From an uncultured Arenicella sp. (GTDB lineage Bacteria > Pseudomonadota > Gammaproteobacteria > Arenicellales > Arenicellaceae): a stretch of 64,000 nucleotides of DNA. Shown here in pieces: positions 14,994-63,650 of the stretch (positions within the stretch are counted from its first letter, which is position 1; each line of letters opens with the position of its first letter). The DNA lies in NCBI GenBank assembly GCA_937974565.1, contig CALJWL010000017.1:1-64000 (forward strand). Direction: 5' to 3'. The translations under genes and the position numbers were made by a program. The notes beneath the pieces were generated by a model that was not told the DNA's origin, ran no database searches, and worked only from the letters and a program-made list of their open reading frames with translations.

Positions 14994-15352
14994 TGGTGGA
15001 GGCGGCGGGGATCGAACCCGCGTCCACAAGCCCTCCGCTCTACGGTTCTACATGTTTAGTTTGTCTTTAATTTAACCCCTTCCAACTGGACAAACGCACT
15101 TGGTGCGGGGCGGGTCGAATTGCGTTTTAACCGTTGTTTAATCGACACAAACAACTGGCGATTTCATGTGAGATGAGATCTCATAATCCTAAGCCATGAA
15201 CAACTCGGGCGAGACCCTAGCAGGCTTAAGCTGCTAGTGCGTAGTTATCGTCGTTTGCAACTATAACTTTTGCAGCTAGTTTTAAGAGTTAATCTGCAAT
15301 GCTCTACATGCACCGAAGGTTTCGCGACCCATGTCGAAGCCATGTCGCCCCC
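14994..15352 (-). ncRNA. ssrA: transfer-messenger RNA
   Basis: On the minus strand the RNA begins GGGGGCGACATGGCTTCGAC and ends in a T-arm (GGTTCGATCCC), with CGCCTCC pairing to the 5' end through one G-U pair, then ACCA. The length of 359 nt is standard. The mRNA-like part at 15258-15226 encodes the proteolysis tag ANDDNYALAA followed by TAA, one residue from the E. coli tag. It rescues ribosomes stalled on broken mRNAs together with SmpB (not in this window). The 3' end is a classic island attachment site, and an integrase relic lies just downstream. Confidence 0.98.
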
Positions 15353-56417: not shown

Positions 56418-56594
56418 ATGAAAATAAATACTCATTTGCATTTTCATGGCTTAAGAATAGCCTCTCAAACTCCAACGGGCGTCACGGTTAACCAAGCATT
56501 AACTAAAACTTGCGTTTTTTGGGATGGATGTGTCTTTTTTGCAACAACTGTTGCGCTGTTGGCAGTGCTGTTGTTGTGTTTTTGGTCACATTGA
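56418..56594 (+). CDS. 58-residue small membrane protein, first gene of an operon
   Basis: ATG at 56418 follows AAGAAGAGAGAG and opens 58 codons. The start is MKINTHLHFHGLRI, the middle NQALTKTCVFWDGC, and the end is a hydrophobic helix (about residues 34-56) finishing in CFWSH. Its TGA stop at 56592-56594 overlaps the ATG of the glycosyltransferase (56594), a TGATG junction, which implies translational coupling. Three cysteines are visible at 32, 38 and 54. I do not recognise a family. It was too short for the usual length cut-off and lies just after a stem-loop, so it was easy to miss. Confidence 0.6.
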   Translation: MKINTHLHFHGLRIASQTPTGVTVNQALTKTCVFWDGCVFFATTVALLAVLLLCFWSH

Positions 56595-57442
56595 TGAAAA
56601 TTTCCGTTATTGTTCCAACATTCAATAGAGCAGATTTACTGCCCCGCGCTCTTGATTCAATACGTTCACAAGAGTTGAGCGAGTTCAACGTTGAGTTGGA
56701 AGTCATTGTGGTTGACGACGGTTCTACTGATACGACAGAACACCTGATCGAGCAATGTTACTCTGATGTGTGCTACGTTAAACAAGCTCAAAAAGGGGTG
56801 AGCGCGGCCAGAAATCTAGGCCTTGAGCAAGCCACTGGTGAATGGGTTGCCTTGTTGGATTCAGACGATGAATGGCTTCCTCATAAGCTGGCCGCCCAAC
56901 TGAGGCGGTTGGAAGATCAGCGTTTAAAAATATGTCACACGGAAGAAATTTGGGTACGCAATGGTGTGCGAGTTAATCAAATGAATAAACACCAAAAATC
57001 GGGTGGTGATGTGTTTGAGCGTTGCCTACCATTATGCGCTATGTCCCCATCATCTATACTGATCCACCAAGACGTGTTTGATCATGTTGGTGTGTTTGAT
57101 GAGGCTCTGCCAGCCTGTGAAGATTATGATCTGTGGCTAAGAATGGCGGCGCATTATTCGGTGGCGTTTATTGAACAACCCAGTATTATCAAGTACGGCG
57201 GACACCACGATCAATTATCGCGTGCATTTTGGGGGATGGATCGGTTTCGAGTTACCGCGTTAGAGAAATTGCTCACCCAGCGCACCGTCAGCTTGCAGTT
57301 AAGCTCTGAGCAATACAACCAAACACGTAACGTGCTAATTAAGAAGAATCGCATATTACTCAACGGCGCTAAAAAGCATCAAAACAATGAATTAATATCG
57401 GCATGTGAAGCCCGATTGGCCAGACTTAACTTACCCCACTAA
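56594..57442 (+). CDS. family 2 (GT-A) glycosyltransferase
   Basis: I start at the ATG at 56594, whose A is the last base of the preceding stop codon. The 282-residue enzyme opens with MKISVIVPTFNRADLLPRAL, then VVDDGSTDTTE (UDP-sugar binding) and VALLDSDDEWLPHKL (DxD). Later DVFDHVGVFDEALPACEDYD (acceptor region) and LWLRMAAHYSVAFIEQP are typical of GT2. It would transfer a sugar from a nucleotide donor to a lipid, protein or glycan acceptor; the acceptor is unknown. It is followed 36 bases later by the phosphorylase-like gene. Confidence 0.85.
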   Translation: MKISVIVPTFNRADLLPRALDSIRSQELSEFNVELEVIVVDDGSTDTTEHLIEQCYSDVCYVKQAQKGVSAARNLGLEQATGEWVALLDSDDEWLPHKLAAQLRRLEDQRLKICHTEEIWVRNGVRVNQMNKHQKSGGDVFERCLPLCAMSPSSILIHQDVFDHVGVFDEALPACEDYDLWLRMAAHYSVAFIEQPSIIKYGGHHDQLSRAFWGMDRFRVTALEKLLTQRTVSLQLSSEQYNQTRNVLIKKNRILLNGAKKHQNNELISACEARLARLNLPH

Positions 57443-57478
57443 TGAACATAAAACCACAATCAACGATGGCGATGTTAG

Positions 57479-58456
57479 ATGCTAAATAAGTCACATGCTA
57501 AAACAGAGACCGTTCAAGAGAGTGCTTCGCCGTTGCGCTTAAACTTGATTTGTGCGTTGAATTGCGAAGCAAAATCGTTGATCGACAAGTTACGGCTAAA
57601 AAAACAGAATCAGACTGTGTTTTCCACCTACGTTGGGCATTGGGGTGTGGCCGATCAATCAGTCTTGGTAACGGTGCTAATAACTGGCGTCGGCGCAATG
57701 AGCATGGCGGCGGGTGTGGCTTGGTTAGCGGCAGTGCAAAATGAAAAATACTTAAATTCAGTATGGTTGAATGTGGGCACAGCCGGCCATGGAGAATTCA
57801 AATTAGGCGCCCCGTTTATTGTTTCCATGTCACAAGGTGTGTTCTCATCGCGCCGTTTTTATCCGCCGCAAGTGGCCAGAAGGGCGGTGAGACTTAGTCC
57901 GTGCATGAGTTTAAATGCACCGTCCAGTGATTACCCAGAAACAGGTGGGATTGATATGGAAGCCTCTGCATTTTTCGACGTGGCTTGTCGATTTACTCAA
58001 GCTGAACTGGTGCAGTCGTTTAAAGTTGTGTCTGACACCCCAAGTCAAGGTATTGAGCATTTAACCGCGAATATTATTGCTGAAATCATGCAGCCTCATA
58101 CCGAAGCTGTCCTTGTGTTTTCTAAAGCATTACTATTGTTGGCTGAAAACGCCGTTCAAAAACCGAATAATGAGCTTGTGATGCCACAGATAAGGGCCAC
58201 CCACAGCCAGCGGCAACAGTTAAATGACAGAGCTAAGCGACTTGCGTTTAGCTTGCCGGCTGAGAAAATTGATCACTTGAGCAGTGAGTTGCTGCGGTTG
58301 AGTCAGTCGGTTTCTGATGAAAAAAAAGCAGCCAATCTATTGTTAAATTACCTCGATACCGCAATATTGAATTTACAGCCAACGTTGCATGACTCTTTAG
58401 CGAGCGCTACTCAAAAACACGCTCAGTCTCGAATAACGCAACATGGAGTGGGTTGA
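57479..58456 (+). CDS. nucleoside-phosphorylase-superfamily protein with extra C-terminal helices
   Basis: A 325-residue protein. Residues about 20-220 are a PNP/MTAN-like domain: LICALNCEAKSLIDKL, LITGVGAMSMAAGVAWL and WLNVGTAGHGEFKLG. GIDMEASAFFDVACRF holds the conserved Met-Glu that binds ribose, and FKVVSDTPSQG the Asp that protonates the base. About 105 further residues are helical and include heptad-like leucines. In several gammaproteobacteria I recall a phosphorylase-like gene beside a photoproduct-lyase-like one, but the substrate is unknown. It ends three bases before the radical-SAM gene. Confidence 0.7.
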   Translation: MLNKSHAKTETVQESASPLRLNLICALNCEAKSLIDKLRLKKQNQTVFSTYVGHWGVADQSVLVTVLITGVGAMSMAAGVAWLAAVQNEKYLNSVWLNVGTAGHGEFKLGAPFIVSMSQGVFSSRRFYPPQVARRAVRLSPCMSLNAPSSDYPETGGIDMEASAFFDVACRFTQAELVQSFKVVSDTPSQGIEHLTANIIAEIMQPHTEAVLVFSKALLLLAENAVQKPNNELVMPQIRATHSQRQQLNDRAKRLAFSLPAEKIDHLSSELLRLSQSVSDEKKAANLLLNYLDTAILNLQPTLHDSLASATQKHAQSRITQHGVG

Positions 58457-58459
58457 ATC

Positions 58460-59494
58460 ATGGTTGATACCATTTACGTTGAAAATGCCATCAACGATCA
58501 TACTAGAACCGCGTTGGTATTAGATAGATACCCAAAAGCTGAAGTGGTTGGTTTAGAGCATTACGGTGAAGTATTTAACTCATCGAAACAAAACTTTCGC
58601 TTACAAAAACACAACCCCTCATTGATCTTGGCCGCAAAGGGCGGTAAGCGCGTTATGCCAACCCCAGCTCAGTATGAAACTGGCGGTGGGGCGCACTATT
58701 ATTTTTCTCACATGCTTAATTGCGTTTACGATTGCCGGTATTGTTTTTTGCAAGGCATGTTGCGCAGCGCGAATTACTTGTTGTTTGTGAATTATGAAGA
58801 CTTTATGCAAGACATTCGTAGTGTTGCCGAGCAACATAAAGGCGATGACAAGCCTGTGTGGTTTTTCTCAGGCTACGATTGTGACAGTTTGGCGTATGAA
58901 CCCGTGACGGGGTTTGCAGAATACTTTATTCATCAGTTTCAACACATCGATAATGCCGTGCTTGAACTTAGGACAAAAAGCACTCAAATACGTTCACTGT
59001 TGAATACAGAACCGCAAGACAATGTTGTGGTCGCCTATAGCCTTAGTCCAGAATCAATAGTTTCGGCTGTCGAGAAAGGGGCGCCACCGTTGAGTAAGCG
59101 AATTGAAGCATTAAAACGATTGCAAGACCACGGCTGGCGCATCGGTTTGCGATTTGACCCGATTGTTTGGCATGCCGACTACTTACAAGATTACGAAGAA
59201 GCCATACCTCAAGTATTTGAGTCTCTGAAACCTGATGCAATAGACAGTGTCACGTTAGGTGGTTTTCGATTGCCCAAAGGCTTTTATAAGACCATGCACA
59301 ATTTGCACCCAGAACATTGGTTGTTTAACGCCGGGTTAACCGAAGAAGAAGGCATGGTTGTTTATCGTCAAGATATTGAAGAGCAGGCATTGAAATCAGT
59401 GGGGGAACTTTGTGAGCGTTATGTGGATGAACGTCGTGTTTTTGCCTACAGTTCATTTAACGCCAAAGAAGCGGAAGCGTCTGGAGGAATGTAA
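58460..59494 (+). CDS. spore photoproduct lyase family radical-SAM protein
   Basis: A 344-residue protein with the radical-SAM motif NCVYDCRYCFLQGM (Cys88, Cys92, Cys95). A further Cys141 is in FFSGYDCDSLAYEP, at the place of the hydrogen-donating Cys141 of Bacillus spore photoproduct lyase. VVAYSLSPESIVSAVEKGAP and GLRFDPIVWH follow the family core. The enzyme would reverse a radical-type DNA lesion or carry out a related radical reaction. The host is not a spore former on this evidence, so the role differs from the classic one. It starts three bases after the preceding gene and ends immediately before the SDR gene. Confidence 0.85.
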   Translation: MVDTIYVENAINDHTRTALVLDRYPKAEVVGLEHYGEVFNSSKQNFRLQKHNPSLILAAKGGKRVMPTPAQYETGGGAHYYFSHMLNCVYDCRYCFLQGMLRSANYLLFVNYEDFMQDIRSVAEQHKGDDKPVWFFSGYDCDSLAYEPVTGFAEYFIHQFQHIDNAVLELRTKSTQIRSLLNTEPQDNVVVAYSLSPESIVSAVEKGAPPLSKRIEALKRLQDHGWRIGLRFDPIVWHADYLQDYEEAIPQVFESLKPDAIDSVTLGGFRLPKGFYKTMHNLHPEHWLFNAGLTEEEGMVVYRQDIEEQALKSVGELCERYVDERRVFAYSSFNAKEAEASGGM

Positions 59495-60211
59495 ATGAAG
59501 AACCTCACCTTAGCTTCGGCGCTGATTACCGGAGCCAGTAGCGGCATTGGCTTAGCGTGCGCCAGAGGGCTGCTTGCTAACGGTGTCTGTGTGACAGGCG
59601 TATCAAGAAGTCCAGCTAATATCGAAGCTGAGTCTAGATTCACTCATTTGGCGTGTGATTTAAGTAACCTTGAATTGCTTAGCAAGGCACTTTCCGGTTT
59701 TCCTAGCTCTATCGGCACCTTAATTTTGAACGCCGGTCTAGGTCAGTTTGGTGGTTTAGAGCAGTTTTCTCACCCGCAAATTCAACAGTTAATCAACACC
59801 AACCTCACCAGTAACTTGTTTCTTATAAAACATTATCTGCCGCTGATGAAACGACAAGGCGGCGGTGATATGGTGATTATTGGTAGCGAGTCGGCATTGG
59901 CGGGAGGCAAGACAGGCAGTGTTTATTGTGCAACTAAGTTTGCAATGCGGGGGGTAGCGCAGTCGCTGCGTGCGGACACATCTAACTCAAATATTCGAGT
60001 TCACTTGATTAATCCAGGGCCAGTTGACACGGCCTTTTTTGAGCAACTTAACTTTGCTCCCATGGAAGGGCAAGAGTTCGTTCTTAATTCAGATGACGTG
60101 GCTAAGGCGGTCATCCACGTTTTACAACAGCCGCGTCACGTGGTTAGTGAAGAAGTAAACCTACAACCAATGAAGCGCAGTTTCAAAAAAAATAGCGTCG
60201 CTAAGCCATGA
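59495..60211 (+). CDS. short-chain dehydrogenase/reductase
   Basis: A 238-residue Rossmann-fold oxidoreductase with TGASSGIGLACARGL, the NAG motif in LILNAGLGQFGG, catalytic Ser in VIIGSESALAGG and Y-C-A-T-K in GSVYCATKFAMRG. The stop of the lyase gene and this ATG touch (TAA ATG), so the genes are co-translated. The basic C-terminus (MKRSFKKNSVAKP) is characteristic of small cytosolic SDRs. The substrate is unknown; it probably acts with the upstream genes. Confidence 0.85.
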   Translation: MKNLTLASALITGASSGIGLACARGLLANGVCVTGVSRSPANIEAESRFTHLACDLSNLELLSKALSGFPSSIGTLILNAGLGQFGGLEQFSHPQIQQLINTNLTSNLFLIKHYLPLMKRQGGGDMVIIGSESALAGGKTGSVYCATKFAMRGVAQSLRADTSNSNIRVHLINPGPVDTAFFEQLNFAPMEGQEFVLNSDDVAKAVIHVLQQPRHVVSEEVNLQPMKRSFKKNSVAKP

Positions 60212-60428: not shown

Positions 60429-61370
60429 ATGATAATAGTCAGTACACTAAGTTCTTACGACTGGTCGCAAGCGCAGATTTACAACCTGGCTGGTAAGCAG
60501 GTGTTATTCCAGACGGCATGCCCTGTTCTCAAAAGTTTTCATATTGACCAAGCCCCAGTGGAAGCCGTGGTTGAGGCCTCTATGGTGGCGCAGGAGTGTT
60601 TGGACCTGACCATAGACTCGAACGATATGCCTGAAATTTACAGCGGGCCAGCGCCGTTTGGCGATCGAATGCGAGAAGTGTCATTTCGACGCTTAGATGA
60701 CTTTGCTAGGTTTGAATTAGACGGCGAGTTAGTGTGTGAAATCGACTTCTCTAACAACCATATTCACTTGATTCGTGACGGCGGTTTTGCGAATGCGGTT
60801 AACGTTCAGTTAGTAACTGGACCTGCCATGATTGTTTTATTAGCCTCGCTTAAAACGTATTGTTTGCACGCAAGTGCCGTGGCTACTAAACAAGGGGTGA
60901 TCGCGATTACCGCCGAATCTGGTGTGGGCAAATCAACTTTAGCGTGGCAAGCTGGGGATGGGTGGCAGCAATTGGCTGATGATATTTTGCCGATTTTATA
61001 CGAAAAAAACGTGAGTGGGATTCGCTTATCTAAAGACTTTCCTCAACTTAAGCTCGAGAATGCGTGTGCGCAAGGCTTGAGCAATGATGACCCTGCCATT
61101 GACCTTATTTTACGACTGAACCCGAAACCAGCCGATGCGATTAACTTTCGTATAATGTCGAAAAGTGAAGCTATGCTGCAGTTTGTTCGTCATACGGTGG
61201 CGGTTAAATTATTTGACGAAAAAATTATGCGCCGACACACTAAATTTGCTAATTACGTTGCCAGTAAGGTGCCTATGGTAGAGTTGTCTTACCCCAGAGA
61301 TTTAATGCAACTTACTGAATTACGAGAACAAATAGCGGATTATCTGCCTCAATTAAAGCGTGAAAATTAA
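60429..61370 (+). CDS. HprK-related kinase (HprK-rel-A type)
   Basis: A 313-residue protein. The conserved His in YCLHASAV, the Walker A motif TAESGVGKST (residues 161-170) and the acidic LADDILPIL block resemble the HPr serine kinase fold. Instead of the HPr-binding phosphatase region there is a diverged N-terminal domain. Such HPr-kinase-like proteins occur beside PqqD-like and nucleotidyltransferase-like genes (HPr-rel-A systems) and in lasso-peptide loci where they phosphorylate the peptide. The ATG has no good ribosome site, so the start may be off. It is convergent with the nucleotidyltransferase gene, 29 bases apart. Confidence 0.75.
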   Translation: MIIVSTLSSYDWSQAQIYNLAGKQVLFQTACPVLKSFHIDQAPVEAVVEASMVAQECLDLTIDSNDMPEIYSGPAPFGDRMREVSFRRLDDFARFELDGELVCEIDFSNNHIHLIRDGGFANAVNVQLVTGPAMIVLLASLKTYCLHASAVATKQGVIAITAESGVGKSTLAWQAGDGWQQLADDILPILYEKNVSGIRLSKDFPQLKLENACAQGLSNDDPAIDLILRLNPKPADAINFRIMSKSEAMLQFVRHTVAVKLFDEKIMRRHTKFANYVASKVPMVELSYPRDLMQLTELREQIADYLPQLKREN

Positions 61371-61399
61371 ATAGTCAACCTTTTAACGGTCGTCATTCA

Positions 61400-62527
61400 T
61401 TATTTTTTGGTTTTGTTTAACCCAATAATGCCTTGCCATGCACGAACCATATACGCTTTTAATAGCGAGTTTGTGTTCATCTTTTTAAGTATATAACTCG
61501 GTGGCGGAAACGCCATCTCAAACAAAAATTTAAGTTTGTTTTTGTAAGTGGAAATGGCTTTAAGGTCAATCAATAGAAGTTTCCACGCTGGAAGCCCCCG
61601 TTTTAATAACGCGCTGCTTGGTTCGTCTGTTAACGGCGACGCATTTAACTTGGCCACGGTATCATCAGGGATGTTTGTGTGAAAGTACTCTACCGAACAC
61701 GTTAAGCCATCCGCACAGAGTCGTGCTAGTTTTTTGTCTCGAGCTGAAGCAATAAAGGTGGCCCAGTCGGTATCTCCTAACCCACTTGCGAGAAGGTGAA
61801 TGTCATAAAGCCATGCCAGCCGCTCTTCATTATTATGATGCCCTAAGCGATGCAAGCAGCAAATAAGTAGGCTGTTTATTGTACTGGGAATAACGGCTGT
61901 GTGAGCAAATGAATCTAAGGTGGTCCCGCCCAATAACAATTCATCAATACTAAATGCGTGAGTTAAACATTGACGATTACTGATGCGCCAGTGTACGTCT
62001 AGATTAAGTGTGCTGTTAGGTGTTAAGTGTTTGCCAAATGTGGTTTGATAAGAAATGTACTCACCACTGGTAGCAAATAATTTTTGATACCCTTGGCGTT
62101 CAAATACTGAAGCAAATAAGTCTAATTCCTCTTTCGATATGAATATATCGGTATCACTTCTGGGACGCTGCCATGGCTTCTCATAGCAACTATAGGCCAA
62201 TGCAGTGCCTTTAAATATAACGTATTTGTCTAGCCCTGCTGTTTGGAACGCCTTAAAAAGGCTCAGCAGTTCCTTGTGCTTTAAAACTTCATTGGCGACC
62301 AACAAAGGCTTTCTCTTGCTTAGCTCGGTTTTAAGCGTCTTATCGAATAAGGCATTCTGGTTAATTAGCGCTGAAATTCCATGATAATCAAGCTTTTCCA
62401 GCGTTATGTTTGAGTGGTCGATTTCTTGGTTTTTGTCGACACCAGTGTTGTGCATCAAATTTGCTAAATCCGTCAGATCTTGAGGGGTTGGCCGCATATT
62501 GGTATTAAATCTTGTGGAAAATATCAA
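61400..62527 (-). CDS. nucleotidyltransferase family protein (PF14907-like)
   Basis: A 375-residue protein. The core YVIFKGTALAYSCYEKPWQR followed by PRSDTDIFISKEELD shows the GS/KGxAL and D-x-D metal-binding features of the uncharacterised nucleotidyltransferase family that accompanies PqqD-like proteins. LDVHWRISNRQ and LLICCLHRLGHHNNEERLAW are further conserved blocks. The C-terminal third is helical. The next gene upstream, PqqD-like, lies 54 bases away in the same direction, so they form an operon. Function is unknown; in peptide-modifying loci it may nucleotidylate or phosphorylate the peptide. Confidence 0.75.
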   Translation of the reverse strand: MIFSTRFNTNMRPTPQDLTDLANLMHNTGVDKNQEIDHSNITLEKLDYHGISALINQNALFDKTLKTELSKRKPLLVANEVLKHKELLSLFKAFQTAGLDKYVIFKGTALAYSCYEKPWQRPRSDTDIFISKEELDLFASVFERQGYQKLFATSGEYISYQTTFGKHLTPNSTLNLDVHWRISNRQCLTHAFSIDELLLGGTTLDSFAHTAVIPSTINSLLICCLHRLGHHNNEERLAWLYDIHLLASGLGDTDWATFIASARDKKLARLCADGLTCSVEYFHTNIPDDTVAKLNASPLTDEPSSALLKRGLPAWKLLLIDLKAISTYKNKLKFLFEMAFPPPSYILKKMNTNSLLKAYMVRAWQGIIGLNKTKK

Positions 62528-62581
62528 ATGAACGTCTGGTTTCGTTAATGTTGCTGTTGGCGGAGCCTTTACGCTGTCCTA

Positions 62582-62863
62582 TCAAGGCGTTTGTGGATCA
62601 GATTTATTTAACAGGTTTCGCTGAAGCATTTCATTGATAAGGGCGTTGATGTCATCCACAATTTGCGGCTCTGATACGTTGTAATGAGCAGCAAGCTTGC
62701 GCTGTGCCGCTTCTTGGTTTAAGCCTTGCTGCAATAAGTTTACCAACATCAGGCCAACGTGGTTTAACCCGAAATAAGCCCCTGACTCACAGTCCAACAA
62801 GACCGCATCATTATCCACTTCGGTCAATGATACGTGTTCGGAGATTTGATAATGAGGCGACAT
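62582..62863 (-). CDS. PqqD-like peptide chaperone (RiPP recognition element fold)
   Basis: A 93-residue protein with the PqqD features VDNDAVLLDCESGAYFGLN, a beta pair followed by HVGLMLVNLLQQGLNQEAAQ and YNVSEPQIVDDINALINEML. The PqqD fold binds leader peptides for modification enzymes. It is the first gene of the minus-strand pair with the nucleotidyltransferase, and an HprK-related kinase lies beyond. No precursor peptide gene is obvious nearby. Confidence 0.82.
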   Translation of the reverse strand: MSPHYQISEHVSLTEVDNDAVLLDCESGAYFGLNHVGLMLVNLLQQGLNQEAAQRKLAAHYNVSEPQIVDDINALINEMLQRNLLNKSDPQTP

Positions 62864-63170: not shown

Positions 63171-63650
63171 ATGAGACATTACGAAATCGTGTATCTGGTG
63201 CATCCAGATCAAAGCGAGCAGGTCACCGCAATGGCCGATCGCTATAAAGGCGTTATCGAGCAGGGCGGTGGTACCGTTCATCGCTACGAAGACTGGGGTC
63301 GCCGCCAGTTAGCATACCCAATCAATAAGATCCACAAAGCTCACTACATCATGATGAATGTTGAAGTAAGTCAAGAAACGTTGGATGAAATTGAAAATCT
63401 ATTCCGTTTTAATGACGCCATCATTCGTAACCTTGTGTTGAAGACCAAAGGTGCTGAAACTGAACCATCAATCATGATGAAAGAAGTGGAAGCCGAGCGT
63501 CAGCGTGATGAAGAGCGTGATGCGGCTCGTGCTGAAGCCGAAGCAAAGGCGGCTGAAGAAGCCGCGGCGGCTGAAAAGGCCGCTGCTGAAAAGGCTGTTG
63601 CTGCTGAAAAAGCCGCGGCGGCTGAAACTACCGAAGAGGAGGCTGAGTAA
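63171..63650 (+). CDS. rpsF: 30S ribosomal protein S6
   Basis: S6 binds S18 and 16S rRNA in the small subunit platform. The 159-residue protein starts [17 protein letters not shown] and has the usual [20 protein letters not shown] core. The C-terminus carries a long Ala-Glu-Lys-rich repeat (about residues 112-159, with several EKAAAA-type units), longer than the E. coli tail of 131-135 residues. A GAGGAG ribosome site precedes it. Its TAA shares the base A with the rpsR ATG. Confidence 0.97.

Follow-up and report, generated by a model that had tools for sequence, protein, structure and literature searches.

The described systems closest to the locus treated here are lasso-peptide gene clusters with a tailoring kinase. 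The HprK-like kinases of the paeninodin and pseudomycoidin systems (PadeK and PsmK) carry an H-K-D-D motif and modify a C-terminal Ser (PMC9266682, PMC8498205, PMC10368454), and pseudomycoidin needs the nucleotidyltransferase PsmN for its phosphate to carry one or two hexoses (PMC9266682, PMC8498205). In the bsf cluster of Bradymonas sediminis (BsfA, B1, B2, C, D, BsfK, and BsfN), the kinase BsfK modifies Ser3 in the core ring, and BsfB1, a discrete recognition element (RRE) for ribosomally synthesized and posttranslationally modified peptides (RiPPs), speeds phosphorylation and assists the leader peptidase B2 (PMC10368454). In the citrulassin pathway, a tailoring enzyme, the deiminase PAD, is encoded outside the precursor cluster (PMC12971885). 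In a 64-kb stretch of the genome of an uncultured Arenicella species (hereafter the window; G000:C17:1-64000 of a 3.37-Mb assembly), genes for a kinase, a nucleotidyltransferase, and a PqqD-fold RRE form a trio that, judged from sequence, probably supplies recognition and tailoring in a lasso-peptide pathway whose genes are dispersed and inherited as part of the core genome of the genus.

As in the bsf system, Arenicella encodes a discrete RRE, B2, cyclase, kinase, and nucleotidyltransferase, and the peptide core lacks a C-terminal Ser, a likeness of gene content rather than of compared sequences. However, bsf is one contiguous cluster, whereas the Arenicella genes are spread over at least three unlinked loci. 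At leader position -2, bsf has Ile and Arenicella has Thr; in Arenicella, the Ser that immediately follows the ring acid (Ser9) is also invariant. The paeninodin-type systems share the H-K-D-D motif and, in pseudomycoidin, the nucleotidyltransferase with the trio, but their genes are clustered and their kinases act on a C-terminal Ser that none of 16 Arenicella cores has. The citrulassin pathway resembles Arenicella in its unlinked tailoring enzyme, although there the tailoring enzyme alone is unlinked, whereas here the RRE and leader peptidase are too. The parts are known, and the dispersed layout appears to be a variant for which no description was found in the open-access literature: no paper paired “lasso peptide” with “Arenicella” or “Arenicellales,” and none of the titles and abstracts listed dealt with a lasso pathway in which RRE, B2, and cyclase are each unlinked. 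One paper naming metagenome-assembled genomes of Arenicellales and RiPP clusters (PMC10902248) does not mention lasso peptides in the parts used here.

The kinase gene (60429 to 61370, plus strand) encodes a 313-amino-acid (aa), lasso-kinase-like protein of the HprK/PEPCK fold. It converges, across a gap of 29 bp, on the gene for a PF14907 nucleotidyltransferase (61400 to 62527, minus strand; 375 aa, TTG start), which lies in operon order with, and 54 bp from, the gene for the 93-aa PqqD-fold RRE, a candidate lasso B1 protein (62582 to 62863, minus strand). The three open reading frames (ORFs), their convergence, and the operon are as described in an earlier, sequence-only reading of the window. 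That reading proposed a peptide-modification set whose substrate would be either unlinked or encoded by a very short ORF nearby. For lasso-type precursors, to which the search was confined, the second option found no match: one lasso leader/core pattern, applied to ORFs of 20 to 150 aa, had no hit across the window and 19 stretches around trio loci. As a control, it recovered a precursor from 16 of 17 stretches (the exception, L131, holds no known precursor); it would overlook non-lasso peptides.

The first option, a co-conserved short peptide elsewhere in the genome, is supported by a candidate. A profile built from five aligned lasso-like precursors of related loci detects a GDVRD-type precursor in 16 of the 18 Arenicella genomes that form the genus set, including the genome of the window (E of 1.5e-8 or better), always unlinked to the trio. 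In that genome, the precursor gene lies at G000:C40:22820-23029 (core, GPTAGIGESGNELARRNPP), beside an asparagine-synthase homologue at G000:C40:20893-22788 that is the candidate cyclase (PF00733, 104.6 bits; cut-off, 21) and that, among NCBIfam models, best matches NF033535, a lasso cyclase model (E of 2e-71). All 16 precursors adjoin such a homologue of 534 to 664 aa (the copy in G002 is cut by the contig start), and the opposite flank always holds a gene read as pyrophosphate (PPi)-dependent phosphofructokinase. Beyond the cyclase, a TonB-receptor gene follows in 8 of the 16, and three other contigs stop near the cyclase; the receptor was checked against Pfam in the window's own genome only. 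With the leader Tyr set at -17, a spacing taken from PMC10368454, all 16 precursors have the YxxPxL leader and share Pro-14, Leu-12, Thr-2, Gly1, and Glu8, with the core pattern G[PG][TS]xGxGES, and the two precursors scanned pass the leader model NF033521 (23.0 and 25.5 bits; cut-off, 19). Two Cys residues occur in the core tail of the precursors of G003, G004, G005, G008, G010, G015, G016, and G017 and in none of the other eight, and may form a disulfide. A further GDVRD-type precursor with a cyclase (L139, G015:C1:40325-40492) has no kinase beside it and a core without Ser9.

The RRE matches PF05402 above the Pfam cut-off (E of 2.7e-12), and its only three PDB matches up to an E of 0.1 are all lasso proteins: TbiB1 (2.1e-9), TfuB1 (3.3e-5), and 9x90_B (0.059). 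TbiB1 and TfuB1 (PDB 5v1u/5v1v, 6jx3), the nearest solved relatives by sequence, come from what we take to be clustered systems. Eleven columns are invariant among 15 aligned RREs. The leader peptidase B2 (PF13471 above its cut-off) is encoded in 17 of the 18 genomes, and the single copy tested against NF033537, that of G004, scores 62.1 bits (cut-off, 33). In five genomes (G014, G002, G008, G010, and G012) the trio RRE is the single PF05402 match, and four of these (G014, 99% complete; G002, 95%; G010, 87%; G008, 78%) also have precursor, cyclase, and B2. By elimination, the trio RRE would be the sole detectable PqqD protein able to serve precursor, cyclase, and B2 in these four genomes, which supports the proposed pathway. 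The other 13 genomes have a second PqqD gene beside an HPr-rel-A-like kinase, identified by position (the family was checked in the window's genome only), with additional PqqD genes in some. The trio, B2, and cyclase of G014 occupy three different contigs, none of them closer than 25 kb to a contig end; in G015, a single contig carries B2 and cyclase, separated by 556 kb, and a second contig carries the trio.

The position of B2 is also conserved. An intact gene lies beside a gspC-like gene in 13 genomes, with mgtE on the other side in 12 of these, and the site is mostly followed by genes read as ptsI, HPr, rapZ, ptsN, and rpoN. Four genomes have B2 at another place: G006, in which the usual copy is broken, and G000, G011, and G002, in which none was found at the usual site. 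Another B2 is present in 4/4 genomes without an intact usual copy versus 1/13 (G004) with it (Fisher P of 0.0021, uncorrected for kinship), when only matches above the PF13471 cut-off are counted (weaker ones also exist in G015 and G007) and G016, which has neither a B2 nor a gspC match and is not judgeable, is excluded. The broken copy in G006 (L089, G006:C3 near 109467) is a standalone B2 interrupted by a stop. Standalone B2 proteins of L072 to L087 have Glu (AEP/GEP/SEP) in 13/13 at the third-triad position, which presumably is that of the catalytic-triad Asp; Asp is found there in L047, L051, L297, L300, and L303.

Family models give the kinase little purchase, and its assignment comes from fold and motif. 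All sequence matches are below cut-off (TIGR04352, 16.9 bits, and TIGR04355, 16.7 bits; cut-off, 200 for both), and a sequence-profile search of the PDB reached the HPr kinase 3tqf at an E of 0.45. The predicted structure (mean predicted local distance difference test [pLDDT], 92.6) matches PEP carboxykinases in Foldseek (E of 2.4e-7) and superimposes on PEP carboxykinase chains with Z scores up to 13.6 (238 residues; root mean square deviation, 4.2), consistent with the HprK/PEPCK fold; HprK has the same fold as PEP carboxykinase. The absence of HPr kinase chains from the 50 fold matches listed excludes nothing. His147 (codon at 60867 to 60869), Lys168 in the P-loop of residues 163 to 170 (60915 to 60938), and Asp184-Asp185 (60978 to 60983), all on the plus strand, are invariant in 17/17 aligned genus kinases. 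We read these four residues as the H-K-D-D motif that lasso-tailoring HprK-like kinases carry (PMC9266682).

Of the three families that the sequence-only reading named for a profile search, PF14907 is confirmed for the nucleotidyltransferase (E of 1e-30, above the Pfam cut-off). Its predicted model (pLDDT, 88.6) matches MenT1 (E of 8.4e-5) and, more weakly, JHP933 and ANT(2''). Asp125-x-Asp127 (62147 to 62155, minus strand), which we take to be active-site residues, is invariant in 17 aligned sequences (16 from the genus and one relative). The protein is a candidate for transfer of a sugar or nucleotide to a phosphopeptide, a role like that of PsmN suggested by analogy rather than by compared sequences.

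The trio recurs beyond chance in the genus: kinase, nucleotidyltransferase, and RRE are each found in 18/18 genomes (only the end of the kinase at a contig end in G009; the RRE cut by a contig end in G016). In the genus the trio lies beside rpsF-rpsR-rplI; in the window, rpsF (named by eye, like the other flanking genes) adjoins the RRE gene at 63171. This neighborhood, the vertical inheritance of the trio, and the proximity of the usual B2 site to genes read as ptsI, HPr, rapZ, and ptsN would suit a housekeeping protein modification, for example of bS6, the product of rpsF, or of HPr, with the lasso genes unrelated. We consider this explanation very unlikely. In G013 the locus is split, with the kinase on C10 and nucleotidyltransferase-RRE-rpsF on C30 and different genes on each broken side, so that the kinase is separated from rpsF, and both halves of the rearranged locus are retained. 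The HprK model TIGR00679 is absent from the five matches of the kinase up to an E of 1, and the HPr kinase-related model NF003883 reaches only an E of 0.13; moreover, kinases of relatives adjoin lasso precursors. To our knowledge, lasso-type RREs have no role in housekeeping modification. The scattered genes, together with the B2 gene broken at its usual place in G006 and absent there in three genomes, could also mark the trio as a decaying relic of an old lasso cluster. Such decay is scarcely credible given the retention of the trio in 18/18 genomes, the motif residues invariant in 17 kinases and 17 nucleotidyltransferases, and the invariant RRE columns.

Outside the genus, kinase and precursor travel together. 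The order set comprises 109 genomes (18 from the genus and 91 others), of which 30 match the precursor profile at an E of ≤1e-3 and 39 match the kinase profile at an E of ≤1e-6. Among the 91 non-genus genomes, 14 have the kinase (E of ≤1e-20), 14 have the precursor, and 12 have both (Fisher P of 2.5e-11, uncorrected for kinship); the kinase threshold was set after the list had been inspected, and G039 falls just outside it at 4.2e-20. At an E of ≤1e-6, 21 non-genus genomes have a kinase match, including all 14 with the precursor. Each of the 12 pairs is on one contig, 11 within 3 kb and that of G041 about 10 kb apart. In five of these genomes, there is a second lasso-type cluster with another kinase, an RRE, and a B2. 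Because this second cluster alone has the RRE and B2, both may be shared there too; loci L297 and L300 to L304 (G043 and G045 to G048) show two lasso-type systems with RRE and B2 beside only one. In a midpoint-rooted tree of 52 kinases, a branch with support of 97/94 has on one side the 17 kinases of the genus and every one of the 12 that accompany [E/D]-Ser precursors. On the other side are 9 of the 10 kinases that accompany other precursors, together with the two kinases of the type found in a lasso cluster on contig C33 of the window's genome. Since the rooting is at the midpoint, the two sides are not shown to be clades.

The sequence-only reading had also pointed to HPr-rel-A loci as places where such a trio recurs. 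If the trio were an HPr-rel-A system, it would act on a peptide or protein substrate of its own, unrelated to the lasso precursor. HPr-rel-A loci (TIGR04352/TIGR04353) have the same three kinds of gene, kinase, PqqD, and nucleotidyltransferase; both models match weakly; and an HPr-rel-A kinase, on a long branch, lies on the same side of the tree. HPr-rel-A membership is nevertheless rejected because the scores are far below the family cut-offs, with 16.9 of 200 bits for TIGR04352 and 20.2 of 35 for TIGR04353. A second nucleotidyltransferase-PqqD-kinase trio in the same genome (G000:C11:1708-3980, L045) is the better candidate, its kinase scoring 90 bits against TIGR04352, also below the cut-off of 200, and its PqqD-kinase pair is recognizable by position in 13/18 genus genomes. 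The nearest non-genus kinases, in addition, adjoin lasso precursors. An HPr-rel-A identity of the trio is unlikely.

The genome of the window also holds other lasso-type genes. A cluster on C33 (L046/L090) combines genes for a nucleotidyltransferase, B2, a kinase, a sulfotransferase, and an RRE with a cyclase-like gene and a precursor-like ORF that ends in Ser; it also encloses a phage tail-collar (PF07484) gene, as does the cluster in G004 (L088). Contig C53 (L047) carries a nucleotidyltransferase, RRE, and B2 near its end, and C69 (L048) carries a cyclase-like gene and a kinase beside a transposase-like gene at its start; these pieces perhaps represent one lasso cluster cut by an insertion. 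The trio might then tailor the products of these systems and not the C40 precursor. The C33 cluster, however, has its own kinase, RRE, and nucleotidyltransferase, and its kinase lies on the other side of the tree. Furthermore, only a single B2 and a single PqqD are present in G014, G008, and G010, which all have the trio, and therefore no second complete system is detectable there. Service to the C33 or C53/C69 systems instead of the C40 precursor is highly improbable.

Conservation of the cores bears on the residue that the kinase modifies. A C-terminal Ser, the acceptor of paeninodin-type kinases, is absent from all 16 Arenicella cores and present in 1 of 12 order cores beside related kinases (G052). 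Ser9 is present in 16/16 Arenicella cores. The ring acid is immediately followed by a Ser in 12/12 order cores beside related kinases, 0/10 other order cores, 0/2 cores of the C33 type, and 0/1 precursor that has no adjacent kinase. Most of the 12 were retrieved with a profile that itself includes Ser9, and the 12/12 count is therefore biased; in addition, the groups were set after the cores had been seen, core starts were counted from the Tyr, and the genomes are related. Thr or Ser at position 3 occurs in 16/16 Arenicella cores, 9/12 order cores beside related kinases, and 5/10 other order cores. Because BsfK acts on Ser3, position 3 cannot be dropped. On these patterns we favor Ser9 over position 3: Ser9 has a chance just short of even of being the acceptor, and position 3 is possible with about one chance in three.

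Several observations weigh against a dispersed lasso pathway of which the trio is part. Its loci number three or more, although clustering of lasso genes is usual rather than strictly defining. Two proteins are below the curated cut-offs of their lasso models, namely, the cyclase (NF033535, 241 bits; cut-off, 525) and the RRE (NF033530, 60 bits; cut-off, 70). The genome of the window has lost the usual B2, and therefore one of its two other B2 genes would have to serve. G001 and G012 keep the trio, and no precursor or cyclase of the GDVRD kind was found in them; their best precursor-profile matches are at chance level (E of 1.6 and 0.26, respectively). The neighboring e3 and e5 genes were likewise not found in G001 (88% complete) or G012 (98%), so that either an assembly gap spanning the stretch or real loss is possible. 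Outside the genus, G024 and G034 have the kinase and no detected precursor of the GDVRD kind. The genus side of the kinase tree also includes L043, L044 (two kinases without a precursor), the HPr-rel-A kinase, and the long-branched kinase of G074, which is beside a precursor without the Ser and yet on the Ser side. Finally, rate covariation is 0.72 (partial correlation) for kinase and cyclase but 0.66 for nucleosidase and cyclase and 0.76 for nucleotidyltransferase and GspC (8 genomes each); with 6 to 9 shared genomes, genes without an expected link correlate equally strongly.

The window shows a further conserved block (56510 to 60211), comprising GT2, nucleosidase-like, SPL-like radical SAM, and SDR genes, that accompanies the trio in most Arenicella genomes. 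In 14 of 16 other genus stretches the SPL-like gene occupies the same position, and the remaining two contigs stop short of it; in 11 of the 16, one or two additional inverted genes separate the SDR gene from the kinase. As candidate parts of the pathway these genes were set aside: in one gene clustering, no member of the four groups was found beside the lasso kinases of L041, L050, and L051, and a GT2-group member is near that of L043. Elsewhere in the window, a transfer-messenger RNA gene (14994 to 15352) encodes the tag ANDDNYALAA.

In the dispersed pathway that we propose, the RRE (62582 to 62863) would bind the leader, through Tyr-17, Pro-14, and Leu-12, of the precursor encoded elsewhere and present it to the kinase (60429 to 61370), which would phosphorylate a core hydroxyl, likeliest that of Ser9 or the ring Thr3. 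Transfer of a sugar or nucleotide onto the phosphate by the nucleotidyltransferase (61400 to 62527) may follow. With help from the same RRE, the unlinked B2 protease would remove the leader, and the unlinked cyclase (G000:C40:20893-22788) would join Gly1 to Glu8. Sequence shows the genes with their domains, motifs, and conservation, the unlinked positions of precursor, cyclase, and B2, and, in some genomes, the lack of a second detectable PqqD. That the parts act together in this way is inferred, as are the residue phosphorylated, the reaction of the nucleotidyltransferase, and the final peptide. A broader proposal is more tentative and, on sequence evidence, somewhat less than an even bet: Arenicella may produce, as a vertically inherited core function, a lasso peptide that is phosphorylated and possibly phosphoglycosylated. 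Its genes would reside in three housekeeping neighborhoods (rpsF, mgtE/gspC, and PPi-dependent phosphofructokinase), one RRE would act in trans for both kinase and B2, and the acceptor of this kinase clade would be the Ser after the ring acid.

Genome mining that looks for clusters presumes that lasso genes lie side by side. In Arenicella, the precursor-cyclase pair would look incomplete and the trio orphan, and a genus-wide lasso peptide could therefore be missed or misfiled; a precursor-profile search combined with the elimination of other RREs recovers the dispersed set. If the proposed pathway is correct, Arenicella would be a clean system in which to test whether one RRE can serve enzymes encoded at distant loci and would likely add a new acceptor site for lasso kinases. 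It would also mean that a lasso peptide is kept as part of the core genome, suggesting a role beyond occasional antibiosis.

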